Source of the DNA: Bacteroidia bacterium
GTDB taxonomy: Bacteria; Bacteroidota; Bacteroidia; Bacteroidales; Paludibacteraceae
Direction: 5' to 3'
DNA: 64,000 nucleotides
Assembly: GCA_009929375.1 (NCBI GenBank)
Contig: SAAO01000002.1
Location: 1-64,000 of the forward strand
Of this stretch, positions 1,806 through 55,693 are shown piece after piece (position 1 is the first letter of the stretch; every line of letters begins with the position of its first letter). The translations under genes and the position numbers were made by a program. Under the pieces are notes generated by a model. It did no database searches and was not told the origin of the DNA. It worked only from the letters and a program-made list of their open reading frames with translations.

Positions 1806-1891
1806 GTGTTCCGTGTTTCGTGTTATCACCACATCGACATATCATCACATTATCACATTATCACATCACCACATCACCAAATCATCACATC
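1806..1891 (+). repeat. Compound phased microrepeat (7-bp then 8-bp units), copy 1
   Basis: Three consecutive 7-bp units of the type GTGTTCC (1806-1826) are followed after one base by eight consecutive 8-bp units of the type ATCACATC (1828-1891). No unit boundary slips, although several units differ by one to three bases. The array fills the spacer from 10 bp after the dprA stop to 6 bp before the ATG at 1898. The same module occurs in reverse orientation at 4092-4180. It holds no recognisable promoter or ribosome-binding site for the gene that follows. Confidence 0.9.
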
Positions 1892-1897
1892 AACTAA

Positions 1898-2350
1898 ATG
1901 TACACAAGAGAAGAATTAAGACAATTAAAGAAAGAATTCTGGGAAGGCTTCGGGTTATTTTGCAGCGAAGTACCGGCTTTGAAAAGGCGTAAAAGTAAAT
2001 TTATGCTTTACAATACCAAAATGAAAGGTGTAGAGCTGAAGTTTGATGCAACGCGTGAAGGAGCCTTTGTGATTCTTGAAATAAATCACTCTGATGCAGC
2101 GAGGCGTTTTGAATTGTATGAGCAGTTTGAGCAATATAAAGTGTTGATGGAAAAGAATTTTCCTGACGGCTTGATATGGGATTTTGCATATATACGTGAA
2201 TGTGGAACCGAAGTTTGCCGCATTTATACCCACAAGCCCGGCATCGATATTCACAGGCGGATTCATTGGTTAGAGTTTTACCGGTTTATGTCGTCGGAAA
2301 TGCTGAAACTCGAAAAAGCTTTCAGACAGGTGAAGGAAGCGATTGAATAA
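1898..2350 (+). CDS. DUF4268 domain-containing protein
   Basis: A 150-residue soluble protein that I place in the DUF4268 family from its overall pattern: an N-terminal YTREELRQLKKEFW segment, a central strand region (KGVELKFDATREGAFVILEI) and a C-terminal W-x-E-F-Y-R-F motif. No function is established for stand-alone members; the domain also occurs fused to nuclease-like proteins. It sits alone between dprA and purH, directly behind a microrepeat array that ends 6 bp before its ATG. It may be co-transcribed with dprA, since no promoter was seen in between. Confidence 0.75.
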   Translation: MYTREELRQLKKEFWEGFGLFCSEVPALKRRKSKFMLYNTKMKGVELKFDATREGAFVILEINHSDAARRFELYEQFEQYKVLMEKNFPDGLIWDFAYIRECGTEVCRIYTHKPGIDIHRRIHWLEFYRFMSSEMLKLEKAFRQVKEAIE

Positions 2351-2505
2351 AAATTTTTTGAGAATATCTTATCATGTTTTGATTAAAATATCTCAAATCA
2401 TGTTTGATGCGATGATCCGAAACTATTGCTTCGAAAAGCCTGAAAAGCCTGACTTTTCAAACAACTTTTTTCACGTATCATTTTCAAAATGACAGTTTTT
2501 TTAGC

Positions 2506-2536
2506 TTGATTAAACCAATGTTTTTTTGTAGTTTTG
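2506..2536 (+). promoter_or_regulatory. Putative promoter of purH
   Basis: TAGTTTTG at 2529-2536 fits the Bacteroidota -7 box, with TTG at 2506-2508 exactly 20 bp upstream as the -33 element. The purH ATG follows 29 bp downstream. Spacing and both boxes agree with the consensus. No purine-repressor palindrome was seen. Confidence 0.5.
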
Positions 2537-2565
2537 CATCCCATAATCAAACGTAAAAACGGAAT

Positions 2566-4086
2566 ATGGAACGCAAACAAATCAAAAAAGCTTTAGTGTC
2601 TGTTTATCAGAAGGATAAACTCGATGTGATAATTAAAAAACTTCATTCTGAAGGAGTGGAATTTATTTCTACTGGCGGAACACAAACTTTTATTGAATCG
2701 CTTGATATTCCGTGTAGTGCAGTTGAAGATTTAACCGGATATCCTTCCATTTTGGGAGGTCGCGTAAAAACACTGCACCCGAAAGTGTTCGGAGGAATTC
2801 TTTCGCGTCGTGATTTTGAAAAAGACAATGAGCAAATCGCAGAATACGAAATACCTGAAATCGATCTCGTAATTGTGGATCTTTATCCTTTCGAAGCCAC
2901 TGTGGCTGCCGGAGCTGATGAGCCTACCACTATCGAGAAAATTGATATAGGTGGAATTTCGCTGATTCGTGCAGCTGCCAAAAACTACAAAGATGTGGTT
3001 ATTGTTGCTTCGCAGGATCAGTATCAGCCTTTGTTCGAAGTGCTTGAGGCTTATGGTGCACAAACAACCATCGAAGAACGCCGCTGGTTTGCAAAAGAAG
3101 CTTTTGCCGTTTCGTCGCACTACGATTCAGCAATATTTAATTATTTTGATGGAGATGAGAAATCGCATTTCCGTTTGACTCAAAATAATGCAAAATCGCT
3201 TCGTTACGGCGAAAATCCACATCAGCGTGGTATGTTTTTCGGAAAATTCGACGAAATGTTCGAACAGCTTCAGGGAAAAGAAATTTCGTACAACAACCTG
3301 CTCGATATTGATGCAGCTGTAAATCTGATCAACGATTTCGACGATATTACTTTTGCTGTACTGAAACATAACAATGCCTGTGGTATTGCCTCGCGACCAG
3401 TATTGGTGGATGCGTGGAATGCAGCTTTGGCCGGTGATCCGGTTTCGGCATTTGGTGGAGTACTTATCACAAATGCCATTGTGGATAAAGAAACTGCCGA
3501 AGAAATGAATAAAATTTTCTTCGAAGTGGTGATTGCTCCCGATTATGATCTGGAAGCAATTGAAATTCTGAGTCAGAAGAAAAACAGAATTATTTTGATT
3601 CTGAAAAATGCAAAATTGCAAAAACAACAAATGCGCACATTGCTCAACGGAGTATTGATGCAGGACAAAGATTTGCATACCGAGACAGCCGAAGACCTGA
3701 AGGTGGTGACTGAAGCAAGTCCGACTGAACTGGAAATTGAAGATCTTATTTTTGCAAATAAAGTAGTAAAACACACAAAATCGAACGCCATTGTGCTTGC
3801 CAAAAATAAACAAATGTGCGCCAGTGGAGTAGGACAAACCTCGCGTGTGGATGCGTTGGTACATGCTATCGAAAAAGCCGAATCGTTCAATTTCGATCTG
3901 AAAGGTGCGGTAATGGCTTCGGATGCATTTTTCCCATTCCCCGATTGTGTGCAAATTGCTGCAGAAGCTGGTGTTACTGCAGTTATTCAACCCGGTGGTT
4001 CTATCAACGATCAGAAATCAATTGATACCTGTAACGAAAAAGGACTTTCGATGGTGACAACCGGATTCAGACATTTTAAACATTAA
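2566..4086 (+). CDS. purH: Bifunctional AICAR transformylase / IMP cyclohydrolase
   Basis: PurH catalyses the last two steps of de novo IMP synthesis: formyl transfer from 10-formyl-THF to AICAR, then ring closure. The 506-residue protein has the N-terminal MGS-like cyclohydrolase domain (STGGTQ at about 35-40; GGRVKTLHPK from residue 64) and the C-terminal transformylase domain with SLRYGENPHQ, the catalytic K267-H268 followed by NNACG, and ASDAFFPFPD near the end. Length is normal for the family. It stands between two inverted copies of a compound microrepeat; the second begins 5 bp after its stop codon. Confidence 0.98.
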   Translation: MERKQIKKALVSVYQKDKLDVIIKKLHSEGVEFISTGGTQTFIESLDIPCSAVEDLTGYPSILGGRVKTLHPKVFGGILSRRDFEKDNEQIAEYEIPEIDLVIVDLYPFEATVAAGADEPTTIEKIDIGGISLIRAAAKNYKDVVIVASQDQYQPLFEVLEAYGAQTTIEERRWFAKEAFAVSSHYDSAIFNYFDGDEKSHFRLTQNNAKSLRYGENPHQRGMFFGKFDEMFEQLQGKEISYNNLLDIDAAVNLINDFDDITFAVLKHNNACGIASRPVLVDAWNAALAGDPVSAFGGVLITNAIVDKETAEEMNKIFFEVVIAPDYDLEAIEILSQKKNRIILILKNAKLQKQQMRTLLNGVLMQDKDLHTETAEDLKVVTEASPTELEIEDLIFANKVVKHTKSNAIVLAKNKQMCASGVGQTSRVDALVHAIEKAESFNFDLKGAVMASDAFFPFPDCVQIAAEAGVTAVIQPGGSINDQKSIDTCNEKGLSMVTTGFRHFKH

Positions 4087-4091
4087 TTAAT

Positions 4092-4180
4092 GTGATGATG
4101 TGGTGATGTGGTGATGTGATGATGTGCTAATAACACGGAACACGGAACACGGAACACGAAACACAAAACACAAAATATAA
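4092..4180 (+). repeat. Compound phased microrepeat (8-bp then 7-bp units), copy 2, inverted
   Basis: Five 8-bp units of the type GTGATGAT (4092-4131) are followed without a gap by seven 7-bp units of the type AACACGG (4132-4180). This is the reverse complement of the module at 1806-1891, including the junction between the two unit types. The array fills the spacer from 5 bp after the purH stop to 2 bp before the mreB ATG at 4183. Every 8-bp unit except one contains TGA on the plus strand, so all three frames are stopped within 24 bp. Confidence 0.92.
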
Positions 4181-4182
4181 AC

Positions 4183-5202
4183 ATGGGATTATTTTCATTT
4201 ACACAGGAAATAGCGATTGACTTAGGAACAGCCAATACTATTATCATACACAACGACAAAATTGTGGTTGATGAACCTTCGGTGGTTGCACTCGACCGTC
4301 GTACCGACAAACTGATTGCCATTGGAGAACGTGCCCGCCAAATGCAGGGAAAAGAAAACGAAGGTATCCGTATTGTGCGTCCTTTGCGCGATGGTGTGAT
4401 TGCCGATTTCTATGCTGCTGAACTTATGATTCGCGGCATGATCAAAATGATTCCTACAAAAAGTCAGCTTTTTTCTCCTTCACTCAAAATGGTCGTGTGT
4501 ATTCCTTCAGGAAGTACCGAAGTGGAAATTCGTGCCGTTCGCGACTCGTCGGAACATGCCGGAGGACGTGAAGTGTATATGATTTATGAACCCATGGCTG
4601 CTGCAATTGGTATTGGTATCGACGTGGAAGCGCCTACCGGATGTATGATTGTGGATATCGGTGGTGGTACTACCGAAATTGCCGTGATTTCGCTGGGTGG
4701 TATTGTGTCGAATAAATCGATTCGTATTGCCGGTGACGACCTCACGCTGGACATTGTGGAATACATGGGACGTATGCACAACATAAAAGTGGGTGAGCGT
4801 ACTGCCGAGCTTATCAAAATCAATGTGGGAGCTGCGCTTACCGACCTGGAAGATGCTCCTGAGGATTTTATTGTGCGTGGTCCGAATCGTATGACTGCTT
4901 TGCCAATGGAAGTGCCGGTTTCGTATCAGGAAATTGCACATTGCCTCGAAAAATCGATTTCGAAAATTGAAGCAGCTATTCTGAGTGCTCTCGAACAAAC
5001 ACCTCCTGAATTGTATGCCGATATTGTTGAAAAAGGTATTTACCTTGCCGGTGGTGGAGCATTGTTGCGCGGACTCGATAAACGTCTGACTGATAAGCTT
5101 AATATCCAGTTCCACATTGCCGAGGATCCATTGCGTGCTGTAGCCCGTGGAACTGGTATTGCACTGAAAAACGTAGATAAATTCTCGTTCCTGATTCGTT
5201 AA
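4183..5202 (+). CDS. mreB: Rod shape-determining protein MreB
   Basis: MreB is the bacterial actin that organises the lateral-wall elongasome on the inner membrane. The 339-residue protein has the actin-fold signatures: phosphate-1 loop DLGTANT from residue 13, phosphate-2 loop DIGGGT from residue 158, and the adenosine motif LAGGGALLRGLD near residue 286. Length is typical. It heads a plus-strand shape cluster (mreC, mreD, mrdA, rodA). A terminator-like hairpin separates it from mreC, so mreB may be made in excess over the rest. Its 5' leader consists of microrepeat DNA, and I see no consensus promoter there. Confidence 0.98.
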   Translation: MGLFSFTQEIAIDLGTANTIIIHNDKIVVDEPSVVALDRRTDKLIAIGERARQMQGKENEGIRIVRPLRDGVIADFYAAELMIRGMIKMIPTKSQLFSPSLKMVVCIPSGSTEVEIRAVRDSSEHAGGREVYMIYEPMAAAIGIGIDVEAPTGCMIVDIGGGTTEIAVISLGGIVSNKSIRIAGDDLTLDIVEYMGRMHNIKVGERTAELIKINVGAALTDLEDAPEDFIVRGPNRMTALPMEVPVSYQEIAHCLEKSISKIEAAILSALEQTPPELYADIVEKGIYLAGGGALLRGLDKRLTDKLNIQFHIAEDPLRAVARGTGIALKNVDKFSFLIR

Positions 5203-5219
5203 TATAACATTAAAATATC

Positions 5220-5273
5220 CGGTGAGTGTAAGCAGTCGACATTAGTTTACTGCTTGTACTTACCGTTTTTTTT
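5220..5273 (+). terminator. Hairpin plus T-run between mreB and mreC
   Basis: Imperfect 17-bp arms (5220-5236 and 5249-5265, about three mismatches or G-U pairs) enclose a 12-base loop and are followed by eight T residues. This has the form of an intrinsic terminator. As the cluster continues in the same direction, it would act as a partial terminator that lowers mreC-rodA expression relative to mreB. Confidence 0.65.
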
Positions 5274-5294
5274 CTAAAACAGATTTATTCTTTT

Positions 5295-6140
5295 ATGAAG
5301 AACCTGATCAATTTTTTAATCCAATACAGTGTTGTGTTTTTATTTCTGTTACTGGAAATAATCTCATTCACTTTAATTGTAAAAAATCAGGGTTATCAGA
5401 AAAGTGTGTTCTTATCCTCAAGTAATTCTGTTGTATCCGGATTGTATGAAGTCAGTAATTCGGTGTTTGAATTTTTCAAACTCAGTGCTGCGAACGAAAG
5501 TCTCTCGGAAGAAAATACTGCATTGAAGAATCAGATTATTCATCTGCAAAATGAGCTTACTGCCTTAAAGCCGGAAGTAAACAAGGATAGTCTGAATTTC
5601 AAAATTCCACCCGAAATGGAATATGAACTTATTTCGGCAAAGGTGATTAATAATTCCACTCATAAACTTCAGAACTACATTACGCTCAACAAAGGATCAC
5701 GCGACGGAATTCATGCTGACATGGGAGTTGTAAGCGAAAATGGTGTGGTGGGCATTGTGAAAACTGTATCGGAGAAATTTTCGGTGGTCATTCCTGTGCT
5801 GAATCAGAATATAAAAATCAACAGCAAGTTTAAGAAAAACAATTATAGTGGTCCGCTTGTATGGAACGGAAGGGATTACCGCTTTGCAAACCTGACCGAT
5901 ATTGCGCGACATGTGGAGTTTTCGCTTGGCGATACATTGATTACGAGTGGCTTTACAAGTACTTTCCCTGAAGGAATTCCGGTAGGGGTGATCAATGATT
6001 TCGATATAAAGGAAAGCGATCCGTATTATAACATCCAGGTAAAACTTGCGGTGAATTTCCGTACTTTGTCGCATGTAAAAGTGATAAATTATCTGAACTA
6101 TAAAGAACAGCGGGCTATTGAACAAGCTGCCGAAAAATAA
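5295..6140 (+). CDS. mreC: Rod shape-determining protein MreC
   Basis: MreC is a periplasmic scaffold that activates PBP2-RodA during elongation. The 281-residue protein has one N-terminal membrane anchor (about residues 7-29), a coiled-coil stretch (about 60-95, rich in E, L, N and Q heptads) and the paired beta-barrel domains after residue 110, including the family segment GVVSENGVVGIVKTVSEKFS and the PEGIPVGVI strand. It lies between mreB and mreD; the next start codon is 3 bp after its stop. Some sequence divergence is normal for Bacteroidota MreC. Confidence 0.95.
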   Translation: MKNLINFLIQYSVVFLFLLLEIISFTLIVKNQGYQKSVFLSSSNSVVSGLYEVSNSVFEFFKLSAANESLSEENTALKNQIIHLQNELTALKPEVNKDSLNFKIPPEMEYELISAKVINNSTHKLQNYITLNKGSRDGIHADMGVVSENGVVGIVKTVSEKFSVVIPVLNQNIKINSKFKKNNYSGPLVWNGRDYRFANLTDIARHVEFSLGDTLITSGFTSTFPEGIPVGVINDFDIKESDPYYNIQVKLAVNFRTLSHVKVINYLNYKEQRAIEQAAEK

Positions 6141-6143
6141 ATC

Positions 6144-6641
6144 ATGCTTATAGTCGTTCAAAATATCATATCATTTATATTGTTGGTGCTTGTGCAGGTG
6201 CTGGCACTGAATAATATTCAGTTTTTGGGATATATTAATCCCTATATTTATATTCTGTTTATTCTTTCGCTGCCTGTGAGATTGCCGCAGTGGGTCACAT
6301 TGCTGTTGGGCTTTTTACTCGGGATTACTATCGATGCGTTTTCGAATACAATGGGTACCCATGCCTTTGCCACGGTGCTTATTGCTTTTTTGCGCAATGG
6401 TATAATCAAACTCTTTACATCTATTGAAGAAGGAAATAACCCTGTGCCTTCGTTCTATACTTTTGGAGTGGGTGCTTATGTAAAATATGTGATTTTGATG
6501 ACATTGGTACATCACACCACACTGTTTTTTCTCGAAGCATTTTCCTTCTCGCTTTTTTGGGTGGTATTTTTCAAGGTAATTTTAAGTTCCATTGTGACAA
6601 TTCTGATTATTCTCGGAATTCGATCTTTTTACCGGAAATAA
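6144..6641 (+). CDS. mreD: Rod shape-determining protein MreD
   Basis: A 165-residue inner-membrane protein of five or six predicted segments, matching the small, poorly conserved MreD family. Position decides the call: it starts 3 bp after mreC and is followed 28 bp later by mrdA. The segment LPQWVTLLLGFLLGITIDAF resembles the family's conserved loop and helix with an acidic residue. MreD links MreC to the membrane-embedded elongasome enzymes. Confidence 0.92.
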   Translation: MLIVVQNIISFILLVLVQVLALNNIQFLGYINPYIYILFILSLPVRLPQWVTLLLGFLLGITIDAFSNTMGTHAFATVLIAFLRNGIIKLFTSIEEGNNPVPSFYTFGVGAYVKYVILMTLVHHTTLFFLEAFSFSLFWVVFFKVILSSIVTILIILGIRSFYRK

Positions 6642-6669
6642 CCAAATGATCTGAGTCTGAATTAAAAAT

Positions 6670-8505
6670 ATGATTAACGACACTTTACAAAACCGGAGAT
6701 TTGTGATTGCAGGTGTGATTACTGCCATCGTGCTTTTGTATATAGTGCGGTTGTTTTCGCTCCAGATTCTCGACGACAGGTATAAGGAAGGTGCTGATAG
6801 TAATGCTTTTCTGAAAAAAACGCAATACCCTCCACGTGGACTCATCTACGACAGAAACAATACTCTGCTTGTGTATAATAAACCGGCTTACGACATTACT
6901 CTTATTATGAGAGAAATACGTGATCTGGATACGCTCTCTTTTTGCAGGGCTCTGAATATTGATAAAAAGTTTTTTATCAAGCGAATTGCCGAGATTAAAG
7001 ACCGCAAGCGTAACTACGGATATTCGTCGTACACACCGCAGGTATTTATGACTCAGCTCAGTATAGAGGATATTGCCACTATTCAGCAGTCGATGTATAA
7101 GTATCCCGGTTTCTATATTCAGAACAGAACACTTCGTGAGTATGCATTTCCTCACGCTGCGCATGTGCTTGGAAGCATCGGTGAAGTATCCCAAAAACGC
7201 ATCGAAAGTGACAGCTACTACAAGTCAGGCGACTATGCCGGTCGAGATGGGGTGGAATATACTTACGAAAAATCGTTGCGTGGCGAAAAAGGTGTTGAAA
7301 TTCTGCTGCGCGATGCAAAAGGTCGTATCAAAGGTAAATACGAGGATGGAAGAATGGATGTAGCTCCGAAAGCTGGGAGCAACCTTATTCTGACAATTGA
7401 TATTCAGCTTCAGGTGCTGGCCGAAAAACTACTTGATGGAAAAATCGGTAGCGTGGTAGCCATTGAACCTAAAACGGGTGAGATTCTTGCCCTGGTTTCG
7501 AATCCTACATTTAATCCCGCTTTGCTTGTTGGTCGTCAGCGTTCGAAGAATTACGCTGAATTGGTACGCGACCCGACTAAGCCACTTATGAATCGTGCCA
7601 CTCAGGCGCAATATTCTCCCGGCTCCACTTTTAAGCCTATTCAGGCACTTGTAACGCTCGAACTTGGTGGGATTAATGAACATACACGTTTTAGTTGTAG
7701 TGGAAAAGGCTCTACACCCATTAAATGCACCCACTCGCACGGTTCGCCGGTCGATCTGCTGAATGCCATTGAGCAAAGTTGCAACCCCTATTTCTGGCAA
7801 GCCTTCCGTTCGACAATTGAAAAGGACGGTTATGGTGAGAAAAATAAAAATTTCAAACACAGTTTCGATCAATGGCGTGAGGCTGTGTTGAGTTTCGGTT
7901 TCGGACATAAGTTCGAAGACAGCGATGTATATGAACAAACACGGGGAAATATTCCAAGCGAGAAGTTCTACAACAGATATTTCGGCGAAACAGGATGGAG
8001 AGCAATGACAATTCGTTCGCTTTCCATCGGGCAGGGTGAAATTCTGGCCACACCGCTTCAGTTGGCTAACTCGATGGCTGCTATTGCTAACGAGGGTTTT
8101 TACATTACTCCTCACCTGAATAAAAACGACACGATGCAAAAACGCATTCATACTGTAATGGTCGATAAAAAGCACTTTCCCATTGTGAATGAAGGTATGT
8201 GGCGTGTGTTCGAATTTGGCACCGGACGGAGAACGAAAATCCCGGATGTGTCGATGTGTGGAAAAACAGGAACTGTACAAAACAATCACGGTAAGGATCA
8301 CTCGCTTTTTGTGGGTTTTGCACCGCGCGAGAATCCTAAAATTGCCATTGCAGTGGTGGTGGAAAATGCAGGTTTTGGTGCTACATGGGCTGCTCCTATT
8401 TCGAGTCTGTTGATGGAGCAATATCTCAATGGAAAAGTAGCACGAACGGAGATGTACGATCATATTATTATGTCAACAACAAATAGTGATGTCAAAAAAC
8501 GTTAG
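6670..8505 (+). CDS. mrdA: Penicillin-binding protein 2 (elongation transpeptidase)
   Basis: PBP2 cross-links peptidoglycan during lateral growth and works with RodA. The 611-residue protein has a single membrane anchor (about 12-33), the pedestal domain (YPPRGLIYDRN from about residue 54) and the transpeptidase domain. Its active-site motifs are all present: SXXK as S319-T-F-K322, SXN as S370-C-N372, and K532-T-G. Its stop codon overlaps the start of rodA, coupling the two partners. Length is within the class B PBP range. Confidence 0.97.
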   Translation: MINDTLQNRRFVIAGVITAIVLLYIVRLFSLQILDDRYKEGADSNAFLKKTQYPPRGLIYDRNNTLLVYNKPAYDITLIMREIRDLDTLSFCRALNIDKKFFIKRIAEIKDRKRNYGYSSYTPQVFMTQLSIEDIATIQQSMYKYPGFYIQNRTLREYAFPHAAHVLGSIGEVSQKRIESDSYYKSGDYAGRDGVEYTYEKSLRGEKGVEILLRDAKGRIKGKYEDGRMDVAPKAGSNLILTIDIQLQVLAEKLLDGKIGSVVAIEPKTGEILALVSNPTFNPALLVGRQRSKNYAELVRDPTKPLMNRATQAQYSPGSTFKPIQALVTLELGGINEHTRFSCSGKGSTPIKCTHSHGSPVDLLNAIEQSCNPYFWQAFRSTIEKDGYGEKNKNFKHSFDQWREAVLSFGFGHKFEDSDVYEQTRGNIPSEKFYNRYFGETGWRAMTIRSLSIGQGEILATPLQLANSMAAIANEGFYITPHLNKNDTMQKRIHTVMVDKKHFPIVNEGMWRVFEFGTGRRTKIPDVSMCGKTGTVQNNHGKDHSLFVGFAPRENPKIAIAVVVENAGFGATWAAPISSLLMEQYLNGKVARTEMYDHIIMSTTNSDVKKR

Positions 8506-9943: not shown

Positions 9944-9955
9944 GATCGTTTTTGT

Positions 9956-11998: not shown

Positions 11999-12009
11999 AA
12001 GCTGTCAAT

Positions 12010-12828: not shown

Positions 12829-13090
12829 AAGCAGGTTTTCTTGTTAGTTTTATGAAGTGTCCCAACTTCTTAATATAAAACGCTTCAAATATAGATAAAA
12901 TTTTACATAACTAATATAATTTCTGAAATAAATTTTACAGACTGACATATTATTTACTACAAGGTCTCAAATGTCTGCTTGTAAGAGTTTTATGGAGTAA
13001 TGCTCTCAATATGAAAAAGTGCTTTTTGTTTCTGAAAGTATTTTTAAAACAATGATTATATTTAAAATATTTCACTATTTTTGTCAAAAG

Positions 13091-14384: not shown

Positions 14385-14392
14385 CAATCAAA

Positions 14393-17205: not shown

Positions 17206-17282
17206 ATTCAACAGAAGCAAAGTAAATTGTACTTTTAATAAATTGTATTTGTTGTTTACACCAAATAACTGTGATTTCTGAT

Positions 17283-17318
17283 CCTCAAATCTTCAAATTC
17301 TCAAATTCTCAAATCTCT
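17283..17318 (-). repeat. Phased 8-bp microrepeat of CTCAAAT type
   Basis: Four consecutive 8-bp units of the type TCTCAAAT occur in the spacer between the rluD-like gene and ddl, with a decayed fifth. On the coding (minus) strand each unit contains TGA. Unlike the other arrays it lies in the middle of its spacer and does not touch a start codon. It is AT-rich and shorter, so chance or slippage is harder to exclude here. Confidence 0.6.
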
Positions 17319-17339
17319 TCAATGGTAATTTTTATGAAA

Positions 17340-39673: not shown

Positions 39674-40045
39674 ATCCGACTTTGAACGCTCGGGCTGAAT
39701 CTTTGAATCCTTTTGATTTGAAAATGAATAAAAAAGCATTGAATTCGGATAAAAAACATCCGCCTTTGAATGTCTGAGATACTTTTTTGAATCCTTTTGA
39801 TTTGAAATTGATTAAAAAAGCATTGAAATTGAATGAAAACCATCCGACTTTGAATGTCAGAGATACTTTATTGAATCCTTTTGGTTTGAAATTGAGTAAA
39901 AAAGCATTGAAATCGGTTGAAAAACATCCGACTTTGGATGTCAGAGACACTTCTTTGAGTCTTTTTGATTTGAAATTGAATAAAAAAGCTTTGAAATCGA
40001 ATGAAAAACATTCGAATTTGGATATTTGAGATACTATTTTGGTTC
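39674..40045. repeat. 84-bp tandem repeat block, about 4.4 copies
   Basis: Four full direct repeats of exactly 84 bp begin at 39704, 39788, 39872 and 39956. A partial copy precedes them (the last ~30 bp of the unit, from about 39674) and a decayed start follows. Copies are roughly 80-90% identical. As 84 is 28 codons, reading frames pass through all units. The minus strand is open over the block (TTG start at 40094, 140 residues, 28-residue period with FNAFLxNFKSKG). The plus strand is open for three units (NPFxLKLxKKALK). Neither has an ATG start, a signal peptide or a recognised family. Nothing else is seen in this 629-bp spacer apart from the fabI promoter. Confidence 0.9.
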
Positions 40046-43796: not shown

Positions 43797-43867
43797 TCTA
43801 TGTAATGCTTTCTGAATGATAACAAAAAAAACACTATTTTCGTAACTCAAACAATAATAAGCTCACT

Positions 43868-45250: not shown

Positions 45251-45283
45251 TAGTTCCTGTTGTGTCCTGATATTAAGAAAACA

Positions 45284-45325
45284 GAGAGGCTGATTCAAAC
45301 TATATTTTGAATCAGCCTCTTTTCA
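45284..45325. terminator. Convergent terminator hairpin
   Basis: Perfect arms of about 15 bp (45285-45299 and 45306-45320) with a 6-base loop and T residues on the right side. It lies between the DUF389 gene and the convergent T9SS cargo gene and may serve both. Confidence 0.8.
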
Positions 45326-45351
45326 TTATTCTGCTTTCGCAGCTATTTGTT

Positions 45352-47763: not shown

Positions 47764-48024
47764 GATTTATTAGAATTTTATTTGTGGTTTATGTACTCTG
47801 AATGAATAAAATACATTCGTCGTTTACAGTGCAAAAAAAGTGTATTCTACAGAGTTTATCAATAGAAATTTATACCATAGCATAGATTTTTATGCAAATG
47901 TGAAAGTCAGTGATATCTCTTTGCATTAATTTTAATTAAGTATATGCTAAGTGCTTATCACAATGTTTTTTAGTATTTTTGCCGTTCTGAAAATTGAATT
48001 TTAAACAAATAAAACTTTTTTTGA

Positions 48025-49386
48025 ATGGGAAAATTCTCTAAAGCTTTCTGGGTGGCTAATTCGGTTGAGTTACTCGAGCGTCTGGCTTATTATGCTGTAT
48101 TTATTGTCATTACCTTATATCTCTCGAATGTGTGGGGATTCTCAGACGTGGAAGCCGGTATGATATCCGGTACTTTTTCGGCTTTTCTATATCTACTACC
48201 TACTTTTGCCGGTGCTTTTGCCGATAAAATTGGTTTTCGGTCGGCCATTATCCTGGCTTTTGCCCTGCTTACGCTTGGATACGGTGGGTTGGGGCTTTTG
48301 CCCACTATGCTCGAAGGAGCAGGATTGGTAAACTACGAAATGACTACTACCTTTAGCGGTCTCGAAAACAGTTATTTGCGTTGGTCCATTGTGCCTGTAC
48401 TGGTGTTGATTGTACTGGGAGGGTCGTTTATCAAAGCGGTTATTTCGGGTACCGTGGCTCGCGAAACAACTACTGAAACTCGTGCAAGAGGTTATGCCGT
48501 TTTTTATATGATGGTCAATATCGGTGCTTTTACCGGAAAAACAGTTGTCGATCCGCTTCGTAAAAGTATGGGTGATCAGGGACTTGTATATTTGAACTTT
48601 TTCTCAGCTGCCATGACTCTGTTAGCGCTTGTAGCTGTGTTTTTCTTTTATAAATCGGCCAAAACCGAAGGTCAGGGAAAAAGCTTTACTGAAATTGGTC
48701 GCGGAATGTGGAAAGTGCTAACCAATGCTCGTTTGATGATTTTGATATTGATTATCAGTGGTTTTTGGATGATACAAAGTCAGATGTATGCTACCATGCC
48801 TAAATATGTGATTCGCCTGATTGGGGAGGATGCTTCGCCGGGTTGGTATGCCAATGTGAATCCGCTGATTGTGTTTGTACTCGTAAATTTCATTACGTCG
48901 TTTATGAAAAAACGTACGGCTATCACCTCTATGACCATCGGAATGCTGATCATTCCGCTTTCGGCGCTTGTGATGGCAGGAGGAACGCTCGTGGGTACCG
49001 ATTATATTTTGGGATTGCACCCGGTAGCGTTTATGATGATAGTGGGAATTGCCATGCAAGCGGTGGCCGAATGTTTTATTTCGCCACGTTTTCTTGAGTA
49101 TTTCTCATTGCAGTCGCCCAAAGGCGAGGAGGGGCTTTATCTCGGATTCAGTCATCTGCATTCTTTCTTTTCCTATCTGTTTGCGTTTGGTTTGTCAGGC
49201 TTTTTGCTCGAAAAATATCTTCCTGATCCACGTGGTTTTGCATCGCCCGAAGCTTATGCAGCAGCCACGCAAAATGCTCATTACATTTGGTTTGTATTTG
49301 TAGGAATCGGTCTTGTTTCGGCTGTGGCCCTGCTTATTTATGGCTATGTAACCCGCAAAATGGACCAAAAGAAAGTTGTAAATTAA
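48025..49386 (+). CDS. POT/PTR-type MFS transporter
   Basis: A 453-residue polytopic protein of twelve or more helices in the major facilitator superfamily. The N-terminus (FWVANSVELLERLAYYAVFIVITLYL) has the E-x-x-E-R pattern of proton-coupled oligopeptide transporters, as does the following GAFADKIGFRSAI loop. Peptide uptake would agree with the dipeptidyl-peptidase encoded 4 kb away, but the substrate is inferred. A -7 box (TATTTTTG) is at 47974-47981. Confidence 0.85.
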   Translation: MGKFSKAFWVANSVELLERLAYYAVFIVITLYLSNVWGFSDVEAGMISGTFSAFLYLLPTFAGAFADKIGFRSAIILAFALLTLGYGGLGLLPTMLEGAGLVNYEMTTTFSGLENSYLRWSIVPVLVLIVLGGSFIKAVISGTVARETTTETRARGYAVFYMMVNIGAFTGKTVVDPLRKSMGDQGLVYLNFFSAAMTLLALVAVFFFYKSAKTEGQGKSFTEIGRGMWKVLTNARLMILILIISGFWMIQSQMYATMPKYVIRLIGEDASPGWYANVNPLIVFVLVNFITSFMKKRTAITSMTIGMLIIPLSALVMAGGTLVGTDYILGLHPVAFMMIVGIAMQAVAECFISPRFLEYFSLQSPKGEEGLYLGFSHLHSFFSYLFAFGLSGFLLEKYLPDPRGFASPEAYAAATQNAHYIWFVFVGIGLVSAVALLIYGYVTRKMDQKKVVN

Positions 49387-49531
49387 TTTTGGGGTTTCGG
49401 AAGCTCAGGTAGTTGTTGGGACAGAATAATCATCCGGAAATAGATAATCCGTATAATTTCTACCATTTTTTGTATTATTTCAGAAAACATATATCGCTTT
49501 TTAAGTACTTGAATCTAAAAATTAAATTTCT

Positions 49532-50095
49532 ATGGAAATTGAACAAATTCAGCAAAAGATCTTCGAGATTCGCGGACAAAAAGTAATGTTGGATCGTGAC
49601 TTAGCCGAAATGTATGGTGTAGAAACTAAGCGTTTGAATGAACAAATCAAACGTAACATGAAACGATTCCCTGAAGATTTCATGTTCCAACTTACAAAAG
49701 AAGAATTTCAAAACTTGAAGTCGCAATTTGCGACTTCAAGTTGGGGCGGTACGAGAAAACTACCATACGTTTTCACTGAACTTGGTGTAGCAATGTTGAG
49801 TAGCGTATTGAATTCCGATATTGCAATAGAAATCAATATGGACATTATGCGCGCATTTATTACCATTCGCCATCATGTATTGAATTTGCCAAATAATAAA
49901 GTAGAAGAAATTAAAAATGAGCTTTTTGAGCTAAAGGCTTATCTCGAAGAGGTTTTTACTGATCAAAACGATCTCAACGAAGATACACGCATGCAAATTG
50001 AGCTGATAAATCAGTCTTTGGCAGAGCTGCAAGCCGAAAAAATGACTACTAAAAAACCTCTGAGGCGAATAGGATACATAAGGGATGATGAATGA
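49532..50095 (+). CDS. ORF6N domain protein
   Basis: A 187-residue protein with an N-terminal ORF6N domain (about 5-95; [20 protein letters not shown] and [14 protein letters not shown]), known from phage antirepressors and KilA-N-related proteins. The C-terminal half is helical, with a coiled coil. DNA binding is expected. No phage genes are nearby. The coding sequence contains a 31-bp perfect palindrome at 49712-49742, encoding NLKSQFATS. Confidence 0.92.
49712..49742. repeat. 31-bp perfect palindrome inside the ORF6N gene
   Basis: Arms of 15 bp (49712-49726 and 49728-49742) around a single central base. The left arm begins AACTTGAAG and the right ends CTTCAAGTT. It lies in the coding region for residues about 61-71 of the ORF6N protein. 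No error in the reading frame results. Confidence 0.95.
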
Positions 50096-50219
50096 GAGCA
50101 ATGATTCAAGCACCACATTGCTGAAATGCATATTTACGGCTCTGTGCGCCATGAATTAGATGAAAAAATGTGTTTGACTGCTGAATAAAATTTTTACGGA
50201 ATAAGATTCCGTTATCAAA

Positions 50220-51107
50220 ATGCTGAAAATTATCAAAAGCTACATGATGCCCATTGCCATGACGTTGGGTGTCGTATTTCACAATCAGGTGGGAATCCTT
50301 TCATTTATGATTCCCTACCTGATTTTTATCATGTTGCTGTTTACCTACAGCAAACTCTCGCTTTCGGGATTACGTTTTACCCGAATGCATTTCTATCTTA
50401 TTGCCTTTCAGATAGTGGGAAGTGTGGCGGTTTACCTGGCACTTCGGCCTGTCAACGAAATTCTGGCTCAGGGTGTGATGATTTGCGTACTTGCACCTAC
50501 AGCAACAGCTGCACCCGTTATTGCCGGAATGTTGCGTGGAAATGTGGCAAGTCTCACTGCTTATAGCCTTATCAGCAATTTTACAGTCGCTTTTTTTGCG
50601 CCGCTTTTCTTTTCGTTTGTGGGTTACAACGAACTTCCTTTTTTCGAGTCGGTGTTAGAGATTTCGAAAAAAGTAGCTGTTTTGCTCATTACTCCTTTTG
50701 TGGCGGCTCTGCTTATCAATAAATTTCTTCCCGCAACCGGAAAAGTTATACGTCGTTTTTCAGGTGCGTCGTTCTACCTTTGGAGTCTGGCACTTATAGT
50801 GGTTACGGGGCGCACGGTGCAGTTTGTCATCGATCAGGGAATGGATCACTTTTGGGTGGAAGTAGCTATGGGCGTGTTGGCGCTGGTGGTTTGTCTCACA
50901 CAGTTTCTCACAGGCCGGAGAATTGGTCGCAAATACGACGACACGGTGGCCGGCGGTCAGGGACTCGGTCAGAAAAACACCGTGCTGGCTATTTGGATGG
51001 CTCAGACTTTTCTGAATCCCATTTCATCCATTGCGCCCGGTGCTTATGTGCTCTGGCAAAATATGTTTAACTCGTGGCAGGTGTGGCGAGCCCGCAAAAC
51101 ACTCTGA
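50220..51107 (+). CDS. BASS family (bile acid:sodium symporter) transporter
   Basis: A 295-residue membrane protein with nine or ten hydrophobic segments and the BASS-type crossover motifs (CVLAPTATAAPVIAGMLRGN and SNFTVAFFAPLFF). Substrates of bacterial members include bile salts, pantoate and other organic anions; the substrate here is unknown. The ATG at 50220 is the first in frame. It converges on the efflux operon, with its stop 1 bp from the permease stop. Confidence 0.85.
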   Translation: MLKIIKSYMMPIAMTLGVVFHNQVGILSFMIPYLIFIMLLFTYSKLSLSGLRFTRMHFYLIAFQIVGSVAVYLALRPVNEILAQGVMICVLAPTATAAPVIAGMLRGNVASLTAYSLISNFTVAFFAPLFFSFVGYNELPFFESVLEISKKVAVLLITPFVAALLINKFLPATGKVIRRFSGASFYLWSLALIVVTGRTVQFVIDQGMDHFWVEVAMGVLALVVCLTQFLTGRRIGRKYDDTVAGGQGLGQKNTVLAIWMAQTFLNPISSIAPGAYVLWQNMFNSWQVWRARKTL

Positions 51108-51108
51108 A

Positions 51109-52221
51109 TTATTGTGTTTTGCGGTAACTTATCACAGCCCATGTATTGAAAAACACTGCAAATAGAACAAGTACAATCAGTTCTTTCATTAACCCTCCAA
51201 ATCCACTTCCTTTCAGGTAGATGGCTCGCATAACATCCGTTAAGTGTTTCAATGGATTAAAGGCAGCTATCCATTGCGCCCACTCGGGCATGCTTTGTAC
51301 CGGAGTATAAAGTCCACTCAGCATAATAAAAATCATCATAAAGAAAAATACGATGAAAAATGCCTGCTGCATGGTGTGCGCATAGTTCGAAATGATAATG
51401 CCAAGTCCCGAAATGCCAAATACATATACAATTGTAAATCCGTAAAGCACATAAAAATGTCCGGCAGGAATTAATCCATACACCAGCCACGCAATTATGA
51501 TGCCGATGCTTATGGCAATGATCCCAACAATCCAGTAAGGAATCAGTTTGGCAATAATAAAGGTGAATTTCGGAACGGGTGTCACATTCATTTGCTCCAT
51601 TGTACCCAGTTCTTTTTCGAACACAATAGATGCTGCCGGGAAAAATCCACACACCAAAGTGAGAATCATGACCATAAGCGCAGGAACCATAAAAACCTGA
51701 TAATTGAGGTGCTTATTGAAACGATATTGCTCGTCGATCTGAATAGGCATAAGCCCGTTTTTGGCACCCTGCGGAAACTGTTTCGAAAGATTCGACTGAT
51801 TGAAATTTGAAATAATGCCCGAAATATAAGTCATTCCCACACTTCCTTTCATCCCATTTACCGCATTGGCCGAAATCATTACCTTTACACCTGTACCTGT
51901 TGTAATATCTTTTTCGAAATGCTGGGGAATCTCGATAATCAAATCCGATTCGTTTTTTTCAATGCTTTTCAGCGCGTCATTGTAGCCATTCGATACATTG
52001 GTAATTTTGAAATACCCCGAAGCTGTAATGGCCTCCACAAGTTGATGCGACATTCTGCTGTGGTCGTTGTCGATCACGCTCAGGTTCAGATTGCTGATTT
52101 CGTAGCTCGCCGCCCACGGAAAAACCAGCAACACCATTATCGGAAACATGAAAATCATTTTTGGCATAAACGGATGCCTTATGATTTGCCGGAACTCTTT
52201 TTTTAATAAATATTTTATCAT
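51109..52221 (-). CDS. ABC-2 type permease of an efflux system (second permease)
   Basis: A 370-residue ABC-2 permease. One helix at about 22-40 is followed by a large periplasmic domain (about 45-175) and five helices (about 180-365) with the loop EKELGTMEQMNVTPV. This is the YbhS/YbhR-like layout. It is the last gene of the operon tetR-tolC-hlyD-ABC-ABC-four-helix-permease-permease. The first permease has the same architecture, and the two should form a heterodimer. Confidence 0.92.
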   Translation of the reverse strand: MIKYLLKKEFRQIIRHPFMPKMIFMFPIMVLLVFPWAASYEISNLNLSVIDNDHSRMSHQLVEAITASGYFKITNVSNGYNDALKSIEKNESDLIIEIPQHFEKDITTGTGVKVMISANAVNGMKGSVGMTYISGIISNFNQSNLSKQFPQGAKNGLMPIQIDEQYRFNKHLNYQVFMVPALMVMILTLVCGFFPAASIVFEKELGTMEQMNVTPVPKFTFIIAKLIPYWIVGIIAISIGIIIAWLVYGLIPAGHFYVLYGFTIVYVFGISGLGIIISNYAHTMQQAFFIVFFFMMIFIMLSGLYTPVQSMPEWAQWIAAFNPLKHLTDVMRAIYLKGSGFGGLMKELIVLVLFAVFFNTWAVISYRKTQ

Positions 52222-52257
52222 AATTGTTTTCTAATTTGGTGTTTGGTGGAATTCATT

Positions 52258-52283
52258 TAGTGACAAGTCTCGACTTGTCACTA
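52258..52283. repeat. TAGTGACAAGTC palindrome between the two permease genes
   Basis: Perfect 12-bp arms (52258-52269 and 52272-52283) around TC. The last three bases of the right arm are the stop codon of the upstream permease (TAG on the minus strand). The hairpin has no T-run, so it is not an ordinary terminator. It could protect or process the mRNA between the permease cistrons. Confidence 0.85.
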
Positions 52284-53387
52284 CTCCAGTCGCACTTTAA
52301 ACTTCTTTACACTTGCAATTACAAGCAATACGGCCATTACGCTCAGCACAGCCACATCGGTTCCCACATCGGTGATGCTCAAACCTTTTATCATTATGGT
52401 TTTTACAGCGTCGATATACCAGCGGGCAGGAACAAAATTGGAGATAAACCGCAGTATGCCCGGCATGTTTTCAATGGGAAAAATCATGCCCGAAAGCAGC
52501 ATTACGGGGAGCATTAAACCCATTCCCGAAATAAACATAGCTGCAAGCTGCGTACTGGTAATGGTTGAAATAAGCAGTCCAAGTGCCAGCGAAACAAATA
52601 TATAAAGCAGCGAAATGAAAACCAGACTTATAAAACTTCCTGACACGGGCACATGAAGTACATATACCGAAAGCAGCATGATGGTTGCAAAGTTGATGAC
52701 CGACAGCACAAAATAGGGAGCAATTTTCGACAGCATGGTGTAAATGGGCTTCATAGGCGAAACGAGCAGAATTTCCATCGTTCCCATTTCTTTTTCACGT
52801 ACAATGGCAATGGAAGTCATCATTGCACAAATAAGCAGCATAATCATGCCCAGTACGCCCGGTACAAAATTATAGGCGCTGATCATTTGCGGATTGTAGA
52901 GCATTTTAACCTCAGGTTGGATCATTCCGGCCGCGCTTTGCACGGGCATTAATTCCTGCCGGTAACTGTTGATAATGTTTCCCGCATAAAATACAAACGA
53001 GGTGGCTGCATTCGGGTCTGTCGCATCGGCAATCAGTTGAATATGCGCTTTCCCATCGTGTGTAAGTTTTTTCGAAAAACCATTTTCGAAAATGATTGCC
53101 AGTTTGGCTGTTCCATCCCTGAAGGCATTGTCGATGTCACCGGAGTTGTGCGCAATCACGGCTATTTCAAAATACTGACTCGCATCAATTCTTTCGATCA
53201 ACTGATGTGTTACCTCATCGGCCTGATTGGCAAGAACCACTACTTTGGTATTTTTTACCTCGGTGGACATGGCAAATCCAAACAGAATAATTTGAATCAC
53301 AGGCATCAGCAACAGTATCATAACTGTTGTTTTATCTCTGAAGATATGTCGGAATTCCTTTCGGATAAATGATAAAAGTTGTTTCAT
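52281..53387 (-). CDS. ABC-2 type permease of an efflux system (first permease)
   Basis: A 368-residue ABC-2 permease. Helix 1 at about 20-40, a periplasmic domain (about 45-170) and five C-terminal helices with the coupling loop EKEMGTMEILLVSPMKP. It pairs with the permease downstream. A phased 7-bp repeat array begins 4 bp upstream of its start codon, where a four-helix-bundle gene separates it from its ATPase genes. Confidence 0.92.
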   Translation of the reverse strand: MKQLLSFIRKEFRHIFRDKTTVMILLLMPVIQIILFGFAMSTEVKNTKVVVLANQADEVTHQLIERIDASQYFEIAVIAHNSGDIDNAFRDGTAKLAIIFENGFSKKLTHDGKAHIQLIADATDPNAATSFVFYAGNIINSYRQELMPVQSAAGMIQPEVKMLYNPQMISAYNFVPGVLGMIMLLICAMMTSIAIVREKEMGTMEILLVSPMKPIYTMLSKIAPYFVLSVINFATIMLLSVYVLHVPVSGSFISLVFISLLYIFVSLALGLLISTITSTQLAAMFISGMGLMLPVMLLSGMIFPIENMPGILRFISNFVPARWYIDAVKTIMIKGLSITDVGTDVAVLSVMAVLLVIASVKKFKVRLE

Positions 53388-53391
53388 GGGT

Positions 53392-53454
53392 AGTTAATTG
53401 ACAGTTGATAGTTGACAATGCATAATTGTCAATTGTCCACTGTCCACTATCAAT
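53392..53454 (-). repeat. Phased 7-bp array, left flank of the four-helix-bundle gene
   Basis: Nine consecutive 7-bp units without a phase slip. The first units read TTGACAG or TTGATAG; after a central TGCATAA the later ones read TTGTCAA or CTGTCCA, which are the same words on the other strand. The array is therefore an imperfect palindrome with a perfect 8-bp core hairpin (TTGACAAT / ATTGTCAA). It extends from 4 bp before the permease start codon across the stop codon of the four-helix-bundle gene. Confidence 0.9.
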
Positions 53455-53806
53455 TGTTTTTGTTTTTCTTCGATGTTTTAATAATACTTATCAGAAGCTT
53501 AATAATTTCCCTGCAATCTTCAACCACAGATTCAAATACCTTAGACTCCAGGTAATCGCTGTCGTGAAGTAGCATGAGCCAATACTCCGTTTCATTTGCT
53601 TCTTTAAGGGCTATATTCATTTTGTGGATGAAGTCAGCTTTCGACTCACCATGTTCTGCTTCTTTGATTAAGGCTCCAATCGCAGTCCCGCTTCTCAGCA
53701 GTTGCTTTGATAAAACAAATTCTTTCTGTTCTGTACTCAAAAATCTGTATGCTTTTATTATTCTTAATGCAAAAGCGTATGATTTATTTTTTACTGTATT
53801 TTCCAT
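53450..53806 (-). CDS. Four-helix bundle protein (23S rRNA IVP / Avd-like family)
   Basis: A 118-residue helical protein of the four-helix-bundle family, named for genes lying in 23S rRNA intervening sequences and related to the Avd accessory protein of diversity-generating retroelements. Family signature: SKQLLRSGTAIGALIKEAEHG, then DFIHKMNIALKEANETEYW. A basic tail (KTSKKNKNN) ends it. No rRNA gene, reverse transcriptase or variable repeat is near. It separates the ATPase genes from the permease genes and has phased 7-bp arrays on both sides. The ATG at 53806 gives the family length; a TTG at 53860 lies inside the array. Function unknown. Confidence 0.9.
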   Translation of the reverse strand: MENTVKNKSYAFALRIIKAYRFLSTEQKEFVLSKQLLRSGTAIGALIKEAEHGESKADFIHKMNIALKEANETEYWLMLLHDSDYLESKVFESVVEDCREIIKLLISIIKTSKKNKNN

Positions 53807-53853
53807 AATATGCCGGTTGTAAGATTGTTTAAGGTTTCTTCTGTTTCCTGAAT

Positions 53854-53930
53854 TTGTCAACTGTGCATTATCAACTATGCATTGCCAATTATCAACTTAC
53901 CATTGTGCATTGTCAACTGTCAACTATCCA
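53854..53930 (-). repeat. Phased 7-bp array, right flank of the four-helix-bundle gene
   Basis: Eleven consecutive 7-bp units in perfect phase (types TTGTCAA, CTATCAA and TTGTGCA on the plus strand). All are in one orientation, the same words as the right half of the left-flank array. It covers the stop codon and last three codons of the downstream-facing ATPase gene. On the coding strand most units carry TGA. The 47 bp between the array and the four-helix ATG hold no recognisable site. Confidence 0.92.
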
Positions 53931-54684
53931 CTCTTTTGGCTTTTCGTGCCAGTTGCTGAAAAACTCCATCCATGTTGCGGGCATTGTATTGTTCTTTAAG
54001 GTTTGCCGGAGAATCGAGTGCTTCGATACGGCCATCGACCATAATGGAAACCCGGTCGCAATACTCGGCCTCGTCCATATAGTGCGTGGTGACAAATACT
54101 GTAATTCCGCTAGCGGCAGCTTCGTAAATCATTTCCCAGAATTTACGACGGGTAATTGGATCGACACCTCCTGTGGGTTCGTCGAGAAATACCACTTTGG
54201 GCGTATGAAAAATGGAAACCGAGAATGCAAGCTTTTGTTTGAAGCCTAAAGGCAACGATTTTACGAGATTGTCTCGTTCGCTTTCGAAATTTAATCTGCC
54301 CATTAATTCGTCGGTTTTGAGTTTTATCTCATTGTCCGTCATGCCGTAAATACCTCCGAAAAGTTCGATATTTTCCCAAACTTTAAGGTCGTCGTACAGC
54401 GAAAACTTCTGACTCATATAGCCGATATTCTTTTTGACCATTTCCGGTTGTTTATGAATATCGAAACCCGCTACAGTTCCTTCACCCGAAGTCGGTTTGC
54501 TGAGTCCGCACAGCATTCGCATGGCAGTGGTTTTTCCGGCGCCATTGGCACCCAGAAAACCAAAAATCTCACCACGGTTCACCTCAAACGAAATATGATC
54601 GACCGCAGTAAAGTGTCCGAACTTTTTAGTCAGGTTTTCCGTAACAATAACCTTTTCCAACGATGGTTTTATTATTTCAGTCAT
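53920..54684 (-). CDS. ABC transporter ATP-binding protein (efflux, second ATPase)
   Basis: A 254-residue ABC ATPase. Walker A GANGAGKTT (about 40-48), Q-loop in GYMSQKFSLYDDL, an unusual signature LPLGFKQKLAFS in place of LSGGQ, Walker B VVFLDEPTGGVDP, and the switch histidine in VTTHYMDEAE. The LPLG-type signature is known in drug/YbhF-like exporters. With the ATPase encoded upstream it makes a heterodimer. The last residues (RVDS) and stop are encoded by repeat DNA. Confidence 0.93.
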   Translation of the reverse strand: MTEIIKPSLEKVIVTENLTKKFGHFTAVDHISFEVNRGEIFGFLGANGAGKTTAMRMLCGLSKPTSGEGTVAGFDIHKQPEMVKKNIGYMSQKFSLYDDLKVWENIELFGGIYGMTDNEIKLKTDELMGRLNFESERDNLVKSLPLGFKQKLAFSVSIFHTPKVVFLDEPTGGVDPITRRKFWEMIYEAAASGITVFVTTHYMDEAEYCDRVSIMVDGRIEALDSPANLKEQYNARNMDGVFQQLARKAKRVDS

Positions 54685-54686
54685 AA

Positions 54687-54731
54687 TTTCTCACCTCTCA
54701 TTTACTTACCTCTTACTTTCTTACTATCTCA
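54687..54731 (-). repeat. Phased 7-8 bp microrepeat between the ATPase genes
   Basis: Six units of the type TCTTACTT or TCTCACCT, with steps of 7 or 8 bp. It starts 2-3 bp before the start codon of the second ATPase gene and runs through the stop codon of the first. On the coding strand units read AAGTAAGA, so TAA or TGA appears in each. Confidence 0.7.
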
Positions 54732-55662
54732 CTCCTGTTTTGCTCAGCTCCATAAAACAATCTTCAATGCCGGGTTTAATAGTTCTGATACTGATGCCTG
54801 TATGTCCTTTAGCCTCAAGCTCATGTCTAAGTTCTTCGGTTTTGTAATCTTCGTTCAGCGTAATATGAACCGAATCACCGAATGCAAAACTGCTTTTTAC
54901 CTGTATGTTGCTTCTCAGGTCAGTCAGAAGTTTATTCATATTTTTGCTGTGAGCAGCCCATAATTGCTGTCCGAAGCCGGCAATGATTTCCTCCGGTGTG
55001 TCTATAGTCAGGAAACTGCCGTTTTGAATCAGTCCAATGCGATCGCACAGGCTTGCTTCGTCCATGTAGGGAGTTGAAACCAGTATGGTTATGCCCTGTT
55101 TTTTCAGATTTTTCAGCATTCCCCAAAACTCTTTGCGCGACACGGGATCGACACCTGTGGTTGGCTCGTCGAGAAAAAGCACAGCCGGTTTATGGATTAA
55201 CGCGCAGCTCAGGGCCAGTTTTTGCTTCATTCCACCCGACAGTTTTCCTGCCCGTCGTGTTTTGAAAGGCTCGATCTGTACATAGATGTCTTTAATCAAA
55301 TCGTAATTTTCTGCAATGCTGGTATTGAATACGGTAGCAAAAAACTCCAGATTTTCCTCCACCGTCAAATCCTGATAAAGCGAGAATTTTCCGGGCATAT
55401 AACCCACACATTCGCGAATATTTTTGTAGTTTTTCACCACATCGAAACCATTCACCGTTGCGTTGCCATTGTCGGCCAGAATCAGTGTGGTAAGTATGCG
55501 GAAAAGACTTGTTTTGCCAGCCCCATCCGGTCCGATAATTCCGAAAATTTCTCCTTTCGATACTTCGAAACTTACATTCTTCAGAGCCTGCACTTTTTTG
55601 TAATGTTTCGAAATGCCCGCACACGAAACGGCAATGTCGGATATGTTATTTTGATTTGTCAT
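54724..55662 (-). CDS. ABC transporter ATP-binding protein (efflux, first ATPase)
   Basis: A 312-residue ABC ATPase. Walker A GPDGAGKTS, signature LSGGMKQKLALS, Walker B VLFLDEPTTGVDP. In place of the switch histidine the sequence reads STPYMDEAS, so the usual H after Walker B is replaced by P or Y. An additional C-terminal domain (about 230-312) follows, as in daunorubicin-type ATPases. It may be the less active of the two ATPases. It follows the hlyD gene. Confidence 0.93.
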   Translation of the reverse strand: MTNQNNISDIAVSCAGISKHYKKVQALKNVSFEVSKGEIFGIIGPDGAGKTSLFRILTTLILADNGNATVNGFDVVKNYKNIRECVGYMPGKFSLYQDLTVEENLEFFATVFNTSIAENYDLIKDIYVQIEPFKTRRAGKLSGGMKQKLALSCALIHKPAVLFLDEPTTGVDPVSRKEFWGMLKNLKKQGITILVSTPYMDEASLCDRIGLIQNGSFLTIDTPEEIIAGFGQQLWAAHSKNMNKLLTDLRSNIQVKSSFAFGDSVHITLNEDYKTEELRHELEAKGHTGISIRTIKPGIEDCFMELSKTGVR

Positions 55663-55665
55663 TAA

Positions 55666-55693
55666 TTTTCAATTATACACTGTCAACTGTCAA
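55666..55693 (-). repeat. Phased 7-bp array between hlyD and the first ATPase gene
   Basis: Four 7-bp units (types TTTTCAA and CTGTCAA on the plus strand) from 3 bp before the ATPase start codon into the stop codon of hlyD. The unit words match the arrays around the four-helix-bundle gene 2 kb away. Confidence 0.8.

Follow-up and report, generated by a model that had tools for sequence, protein, structure and literature searches.

Why should the spacers between bacterial genes be filled with tandem units of only 7 and 8 bp, held in phase from the stop codon of one gene to the start codon of the next? The question is raised by the 64,000-nucleotide stretch analysed here (the window), corresponding to C64:1-64000 of a draft genome of 3,868,148 bases (99.98% complete). 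The initial annotation had listed seven such spacers and ascribed them to a process that writes or maintains phased DNA, for which no described system was known. The reading preferred here, with a probability of about 0.55, is that the arrays form a dispersed, fast-evolving family of the heptameric class, with units of 7 and 8 bp, part of which constitutes the inverted arms of S23/IVS (intervening sequence) cassettes, the gene-less arrays being relatives of these.

Periodicity of 7 or 8 bp was found in all seven spacers, as claimed, with unequal strength. Comparison of the best period-7/8 score with 1000 dinucleotide shuffles gave counts of 0 for 1796-1897, 4087-4182, 17221-17339, 53388-53449 and 55663-55700, 1 for 53830-53930 and 5 for 54685-54740. 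Within strict ORF borders, four arrays were at 0/1000 and three were weak (65 for 53861-53919, 252 for 54685-54723 and 117 for 55663-55689), the latter being convincing only when the overlap into the next ORF is included. The words do differ between loci, but some had been read wrongly. The array at 17281-17314 consists of 8-bp units of the AAATCTTC type, and an AACACGG-family 7-mer array adjoins a TGTGATGA-family 8-mer array at both 1801-1892 and 4090-4181 (Table 1). The two corresponding spacers (1796-1897 and 4087-4182) present this pair in reversed order and strand, with flanking genes in the same direction. The array at 54687-54731, regarded as the one exception to phase, is a mixture of 7- and 8-bp steps, with unit starts stepping by 7, 8, 7, 8 and 8 and a TRF period of 15. 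No Rfam RNA match was found in the window. An 84-bp tandem repeat of four copies (39702-40041, 86% matches) overlaps a predicted ORF.

Table 1. Arrays and S23 gene of the window, with positions counted from its first base.
Feature	Position	Strand	Context
7-mer array, AACACGG/AACACGA family (GTGTTTC on +)	1801..1824	-	directly after stop of DprA-like gene 677-1795
8-mer array, TGTGATGA family	1825..1892	-	ends 5 bp short of DUF4268 gene start (1898-2350)
8-mer array, TGTGATGA family	4090..4126	+	begins 3 bp past purH stop (2566-4086)
7-mer array, AACACGG family	4132..4181	+	ends 1 bp short of mreB start (4183-5202)
8-mer array, TTTGAAGA type (AAATCTTC on +)	17281..17314	-	spacer upstream of D-Ala-D-Ala ligase-like gene
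7-mer arrays TTGACAG (left) and inverse (right), near-palindromic	53397..53456	.	3' arm region of S23 cassette
S23 / 23S rRNA IVP gene (PF05635)	53450-53806	-	E 2.3e-28; 118 aa from ATG (136 aa from TTG at 53860)
7-mer array, TTGACAG type	53854..53932	.	upstream of S23, into 3' end of ABC ATPase gene; 5' arm of S23 cassette
Mixed 7/8-bp array, period 15	54690..54733	.	between two ABC ATPase genes
Short 7-mer array CTGTCAA	55673..55693	.	between ABC ATPase and HlyD-like genes; weak alone

On a genomic scale, 842,348 bases (window included) were sampled, comprising 514 spacers and 102,073 spacer bases between ORFs called in-house; the contigs had been chosen through earlier search matches, and the sample is therefore not random. 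Spacers contained 47 segments of period 7 and 35 of period 8, against shuffle means of 0.50 and 0.60 (maximum 2, 20 rounds), so the proviso that shuffled spacers might hold equally many arrays was settled in favour of the arrays. Other enriched periods were limited to 14, 15, 16, 21, 22, 23, 24 and 28, each a multiple of 7 or 8 or a sum of them, and coding DNA yielded only three and two segments of periods 7 and 8, the enrichment being confined to spacers. Arrays were borne by 54/514 spacers (co-directional 41/384, convergent 8/62, divergent 5/68). The idea that all spacers are decayed arrays was discarded, since the array-free ones lack any lag-7/8 excess. Chance or an assembly artefact might be invoked for the three window arrays that are weak inside strict ORF borders, but it is hardly credible against the 47 and 35 segments where about 0.5 would be expected, and the same periods recur in arrays of other genomes. 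Chance is refuted by these counts unless the assembly is wrong throughout, which is itself unlikely because of that recurrence; the 7/8-bp arrays between genes are real. Segments of periods 9 and 11 (12 and 15, respectively) stand out in the sampled spacers of one relative, G005, and not in the others. The GC-rich palindromes CCCCCTAAAGGGG and CCGCCGTGGCGG each occur in about eight sampled spacers of this genome, often beside 8-mer arrays, as at C90:31216-31521 and at about 56618-56640 of the window; on C90 a palindrome-plus-array block is present in three consecutive copies.

The 83 arrays fall into 23 word clusters, letter-shuffled words giving at least 45 (200 rounds), and one and the same word can recur at many unlinked spacers of this genome, for which purely local slippage is therefore insufficient. 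AACACGR is present at 27 places in this genome and in 14/35 relatives of the same genus, and in 0/24 genomes of other families, one of which carries the reversed control word at 18 places; the lexicons thus look lineage-specific. No unit family with runs of at least 3 G dominates the word list of the 83 arrays. Word sharing across phyla was rejected as a sign of transfer: threefold GACTTTT was found in 16/296 genomes (this one included) and its reversed control in 13, and with a control almost as frequent, a word found in distant genera says nothing about transfer.

The anchoring of arrays at gene borders was confirmed, as 41/83 arrays have an edge no more than 15 bp from a border, compared with 24.6 under random placement (maximum 37, 500 rounds). 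That slippage repeats would not respect such borders, as had been argued, does not follow: units of 7 or 8 bp shift the reading frame, and selection against such shifts would suffice to confine arrays to spacers. Arrays no farther than 20 bp from a border also have a polarity, with G>C on the outward strand in 41:3 cases in this genome (stop side 27:3, start side 14:0); the values for array-free spacers were +0.10 (starts) and -0.03 (stops). In the relatives the polarity holds at stops (27:2, 2 ties) and fails at starts (4:7). Opposed arrays sharing one spacer are placed head to head in 13:0 cases here and in 4:1 in relatives, and beyond 60 bp from a border the nearest-border rule is absent (11:11).

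Selection on translation signals could by itself make the polarity, if arrays survived only on the strand that gives stops after genes and avoids starts before them. Stop-side polarity is indeed confounded with stop-codon content, the outward strand being richer in stop codons in 49/59 non-tied anchored arrays (own and relatives pooled), partly by definition, since an ORF necessarily terminates in an array that contains its stop. However, 4/30 of the own stop-side arrays are G>C and yet have fewer stop codons, and the lexicon, the two periods and the S23 arms are not explained by such selection, which makes it an improbable account. Far less probable still is a telomere-like healing, in which template- or enzyme-made repeats are added outward at broken ends. 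The outward polarity and head-to-head order agree with it, whereas the many different words and the same polarity at S23 cassettes do not; moreover, RVT_1, which represents the polymerases in this search, has no match in this genome nor in the array-rich G002, G009, G023, G025 and G034, while G005 and G030 have it. Writing of the arrays by reverse transcription was rejected on the absence of an RVT_1 match in this genome, and the dedicated writing process of the initial annotation is unsupported by the same searches.

Repeats of a comparable kind have been recognised in several lineages. The STRR sequences of cyanobacteria are short tandemly repeated heptamers in spacers, like the arrays described here, and are not known to have been described as more than repeats. 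REP/REPIN elements, associated with Y1 transposases, are likewise dispersed and intergenic, but are single GC-rich palindromes instead of tandem 7/8-bp arms; Y1 transposases are present in this genome and in 33/40 genomes overall, and their number is not significantly correlated with array density (rho 0.27, p 0.19, 26 genomes); spread of the arrays by these enzymes was not retained as an explanation on this count. Contrary to the view that no described system exists, the available text of two papers already reports heptameric intergenic repeats with near-gene polarity (PMC4692102, PMC4679880), and the window arrays belong to this class (LSSR/STRR/TAACTGA/GGGNATC), with period 8 almost as common as period 7. 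GGGNATC repeats of Xanthomonas and Nostoc, for which near-gene polarity was reported and quadruplexes were discussed (Rehm et al. 2015, PMC4692102, in the text available), resemble ours as genome-wide spacer heptamers that are few between divergent genes and vary in length among relatives, with the G-rich strand after stops and the antisense before starts, although here the start rule fails in relatives. They differ in having one G-tract word per group, as opposed to a variety of words that lack G-tracts, have either of two periods (7 and 8) and are linked with S23. TAACTGA repeats, also intergenic heptamers near start codons, were described in Beggiatoaceae, Cyanobacteria and Bacteroidetes, Paludibacter propionicigenes being among five of the latter (MacGregor 2015, PMC4679880); the available text concerns a single word, suspects horizontal transfer without giving a mechanism, and mentions neither S23 nor intervening sequences.

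The link with S23 emerges from the window itself, where the S23 gene has an array on each side and separates an ABC ATPase gene from an ABC-2 permease gene. This genome contains four PF05635 matches above the cut-off and one below, and all four of the former have arrays of score at least 8 on both sides, a condition shared by 23/568 sampled ORFs (the window S23 gene counted among the 23). At the C1 and C45 loci the same unit is found inverted across the two sides; at the window locus the 3' spacer carries both orientations and an exact inverted unit is common to both sides, while the C37 locus has different words on its sides and no exact inverted unit in common. The window arms (53388-53932) rank 2 of 33 in pairing and form 52 long-span pairs (z -2.7, 20 shuffles). 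With no Rfam match in the window and ABC transporter genes as flanks, this cassette is not inside an rRNA gene. Arrays by far outnumber S23 genes, with 54 array-bearing spacers in about one fifth of the genome against four genes, and a search of 474 sampled spacers for S23 remnants found none, the best E value being 0.42.

The association was then examined at 28 S23 loci on plasmids (20 of 32 records and 8 of 26 records), which were picked by rank, later for taxonomic spread, and blind to their flanks. At a limit of 3/300 shuffles, a 5' array was present in 27/28, a 3' array in 25/28 and both in 24/28. The loci span seven phyla, mostly Cyanobacteriota, together with Bacteroidota, Pseudomonadota, Gemmatimonadota, Bacillota, Spirochaetota and Chloroflexota. 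Their neighbours include nrdB and nrdA, cas6 and cas4 (two records), cas10 and cmr3, cas2 and cas1, hsdS and hsdR, and an Fe-S accessory gene with sufB; in Azospirillum a large-subunit rRNA match encloses the S23 gene, and this locus is a 23S rRNA intervening sequence. A stricter control on 16 cyanobacterial loci found arrays in 25/32 S23-adjacent spacers compared with 20/84 others, and on both sides of only 9/16 S23 genes compared with 8/117 others. Four loci (L318, L319, L320 and L324) are related, so that p-values are optimistic. The Trichormus plasmid A background contained one array among 23 spacers, and that of Monoglobus, whose S23 arms score 11.0 and 11.5, had arrays in 0/21 spacers of a 50-kb control stretch at threshold 12 and in 3/21 at threshold 8.

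When these loci were combined with the four of this genome and G023, an exact inverted unit was common to both sides in 25/33, in comparison to 33/930 mismatched pairs; a direct one was common in 8/33, in comparison to 11/930. The inverted unit was absent in the other 8/33, C37 included. In terms of pairing energy with the 5' arm, the own 3' arm ranked best in 13/33 loci (about one expected), among the top three in 20, and 18th or worse in 6/33. The best 5' array was G>C in 27/33 (4 opposite, 2 ties) and the best 3' array C>G in 22/33 (7 opposite, 4 ties), and folds of nine chosen stretches featured 15-54 long-span pairs with z from -1.4 to -9.2. It is therefore well supported that 7/8-bp arrays around S23 genes are paired stem arms of S23/IVS-like cassettes.

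A model for such cassettes is offered by the 23S rRNA intervening sequence of Coxiella, which has inverted ends, is excised by RNase III and carries variable-number tandem heptamers before S23 (Warrier et al. 2016, PMC4990558, in the text available). The S23 ORF between complementary ends and the upstream heptamers are shared with the loci described here; the Coxiella element lies in rRNA and is excised, whereas ours occupy spacers of operons or other genes, where excision would be a matter of analogy. The simplest account of the S23 loci is a cassette in which 7/8-bp arms, inverted to each other, enclose an S23 gene, namely an IVS outside rRNA; the arms of the window gene would be its paired inverted ends, and gene and anatomy are those of the rRNA IVS. 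In the transcript the arms may pair into a long stem whose loop contains S23, which RNase III could excise as in rRNA, and the cassette would therefore be tolerated inside an operon or an rRNA at little cost. Gene-less arrays, outward G>C and head to head, are probably empty or non-autonomous members of the family, a kinship suggested by equal units, polarity and overlapping words and opposed by the lack of S23 remnants and of any correlation with S23 number. We infer the RNA excision, the mobility of the cassettes and the common origin of solo arrays and cassettes. Arms gain or lose whole units and can exchange their words, probably through recombination between scattered copies; slippage together with recombination could account for both kinds of change, with frameshift selection excluding arms from genes.

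Such changes are visible between related genomes, although no near strain of this genome was found. The purH-mreB spacer carries an array in 15/97 loci (several represent one genome counted twice), with differing words. In two records of another Bacteroidales lineage (97.8% identity over 3.75 kb), each arm in this spacer differs by 21 bp, or three units, and the core between them by one base; unit gain and loss plus substitution thus keep the phase, against the argument that slippage would make it drift. For G012/G035 the purH locus alone was aligned, and in the close pair G013/G024 the only array near common spacers, a short one, is almost unchanged. A non-periodic core, most copies of which adjoin arrays (by eye), is present in 18 copies in this genome at up to 3 mismatches, in one copy each in G027 and G031 (the latter without arrays, by eye) and in none of the other 37 relatives, reversed controls giving 0. 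A site common to this genome and G027 (G000:C37:80331-80780 and G027:C18:56211-56660) has flanks identical at 141/148 and 163/170 positions, although purH of the two genomes is identical at 1176/1518, and its left array is of the ATTTGAAA type here as against the GTGTTTC type in G027 (15/38 identical). By alignment, this is a word swap between fixed flanks, and it probably came after transfer of the site. The flanks are about 95% identical, compared with 77% for purH between the species, which probably reflects recent transfer of the segment with its array swapped.

Plain simple-sequence repeats could also yield this picture, if slippage favoured 7-8 bp units, frameshift selection confined them, gene conversion spread the words and S23 settled in spacers already bearing arrays. 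The whole-unit differences and the word swap are in line with it, as is the finding that heptamers are the commonest class of long repeats in most repeat-rich genomes, for which a polymerase footprint was proposed (Mrazek 2007, as told in the available text of PMC4679880), and array density does not correlate with S23 number (rho -0.03, 26 genomes, small samples). It does not predict, however, that one unit should recur in inverted form across S23, the arms in the Monoglobus record, where threshold 12 leaves the control stretch without arrays, or the consistent head-to-head order, and we consider it rather unlikely. In this respect the initial annotation was right that something beyond local slippage is involved, as the shared lexicon, the fixed polarity and the word swap between fixed flanks indicate.

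Heptameric intergenic repeats and the S23/IVS protein have each long been known and are unexplained, and a search of the open literature, subscription papers aside, found none joining such heptamers to S23 genes outside rRNA. For the S23 protein a structure has been solved, that of XCC0516 of Xanthomonas (2GSC). A tentative and rather doubtful extension of the cassette reading is that all intergenic 7/8-bp arrays (STRR, GGGNATC, TAACTGA and those described here) are arms or gene-less relatives of one mobile S23/IVS family, which would invade operon spacers and rRNA, hide as an RNA stem, swap arms by recombination and perhaps be mobilised in trans by S23. If true, the physical link between S23 and heptamers, seen in seven phyla and in one 23S rRNA IVS, would merge two curiosities into one testable element, and would explain the placement of such repeats on a fixed strand at gene ends. 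XisH/XisI have been noted in cyanobacteria carrying heptamer repeats (MacGregor 2015, PMC4679880, in the text available), and on a plasmid of Nostoc cf. commune (L340) a XisI gene directly adjoins the S23 gene.
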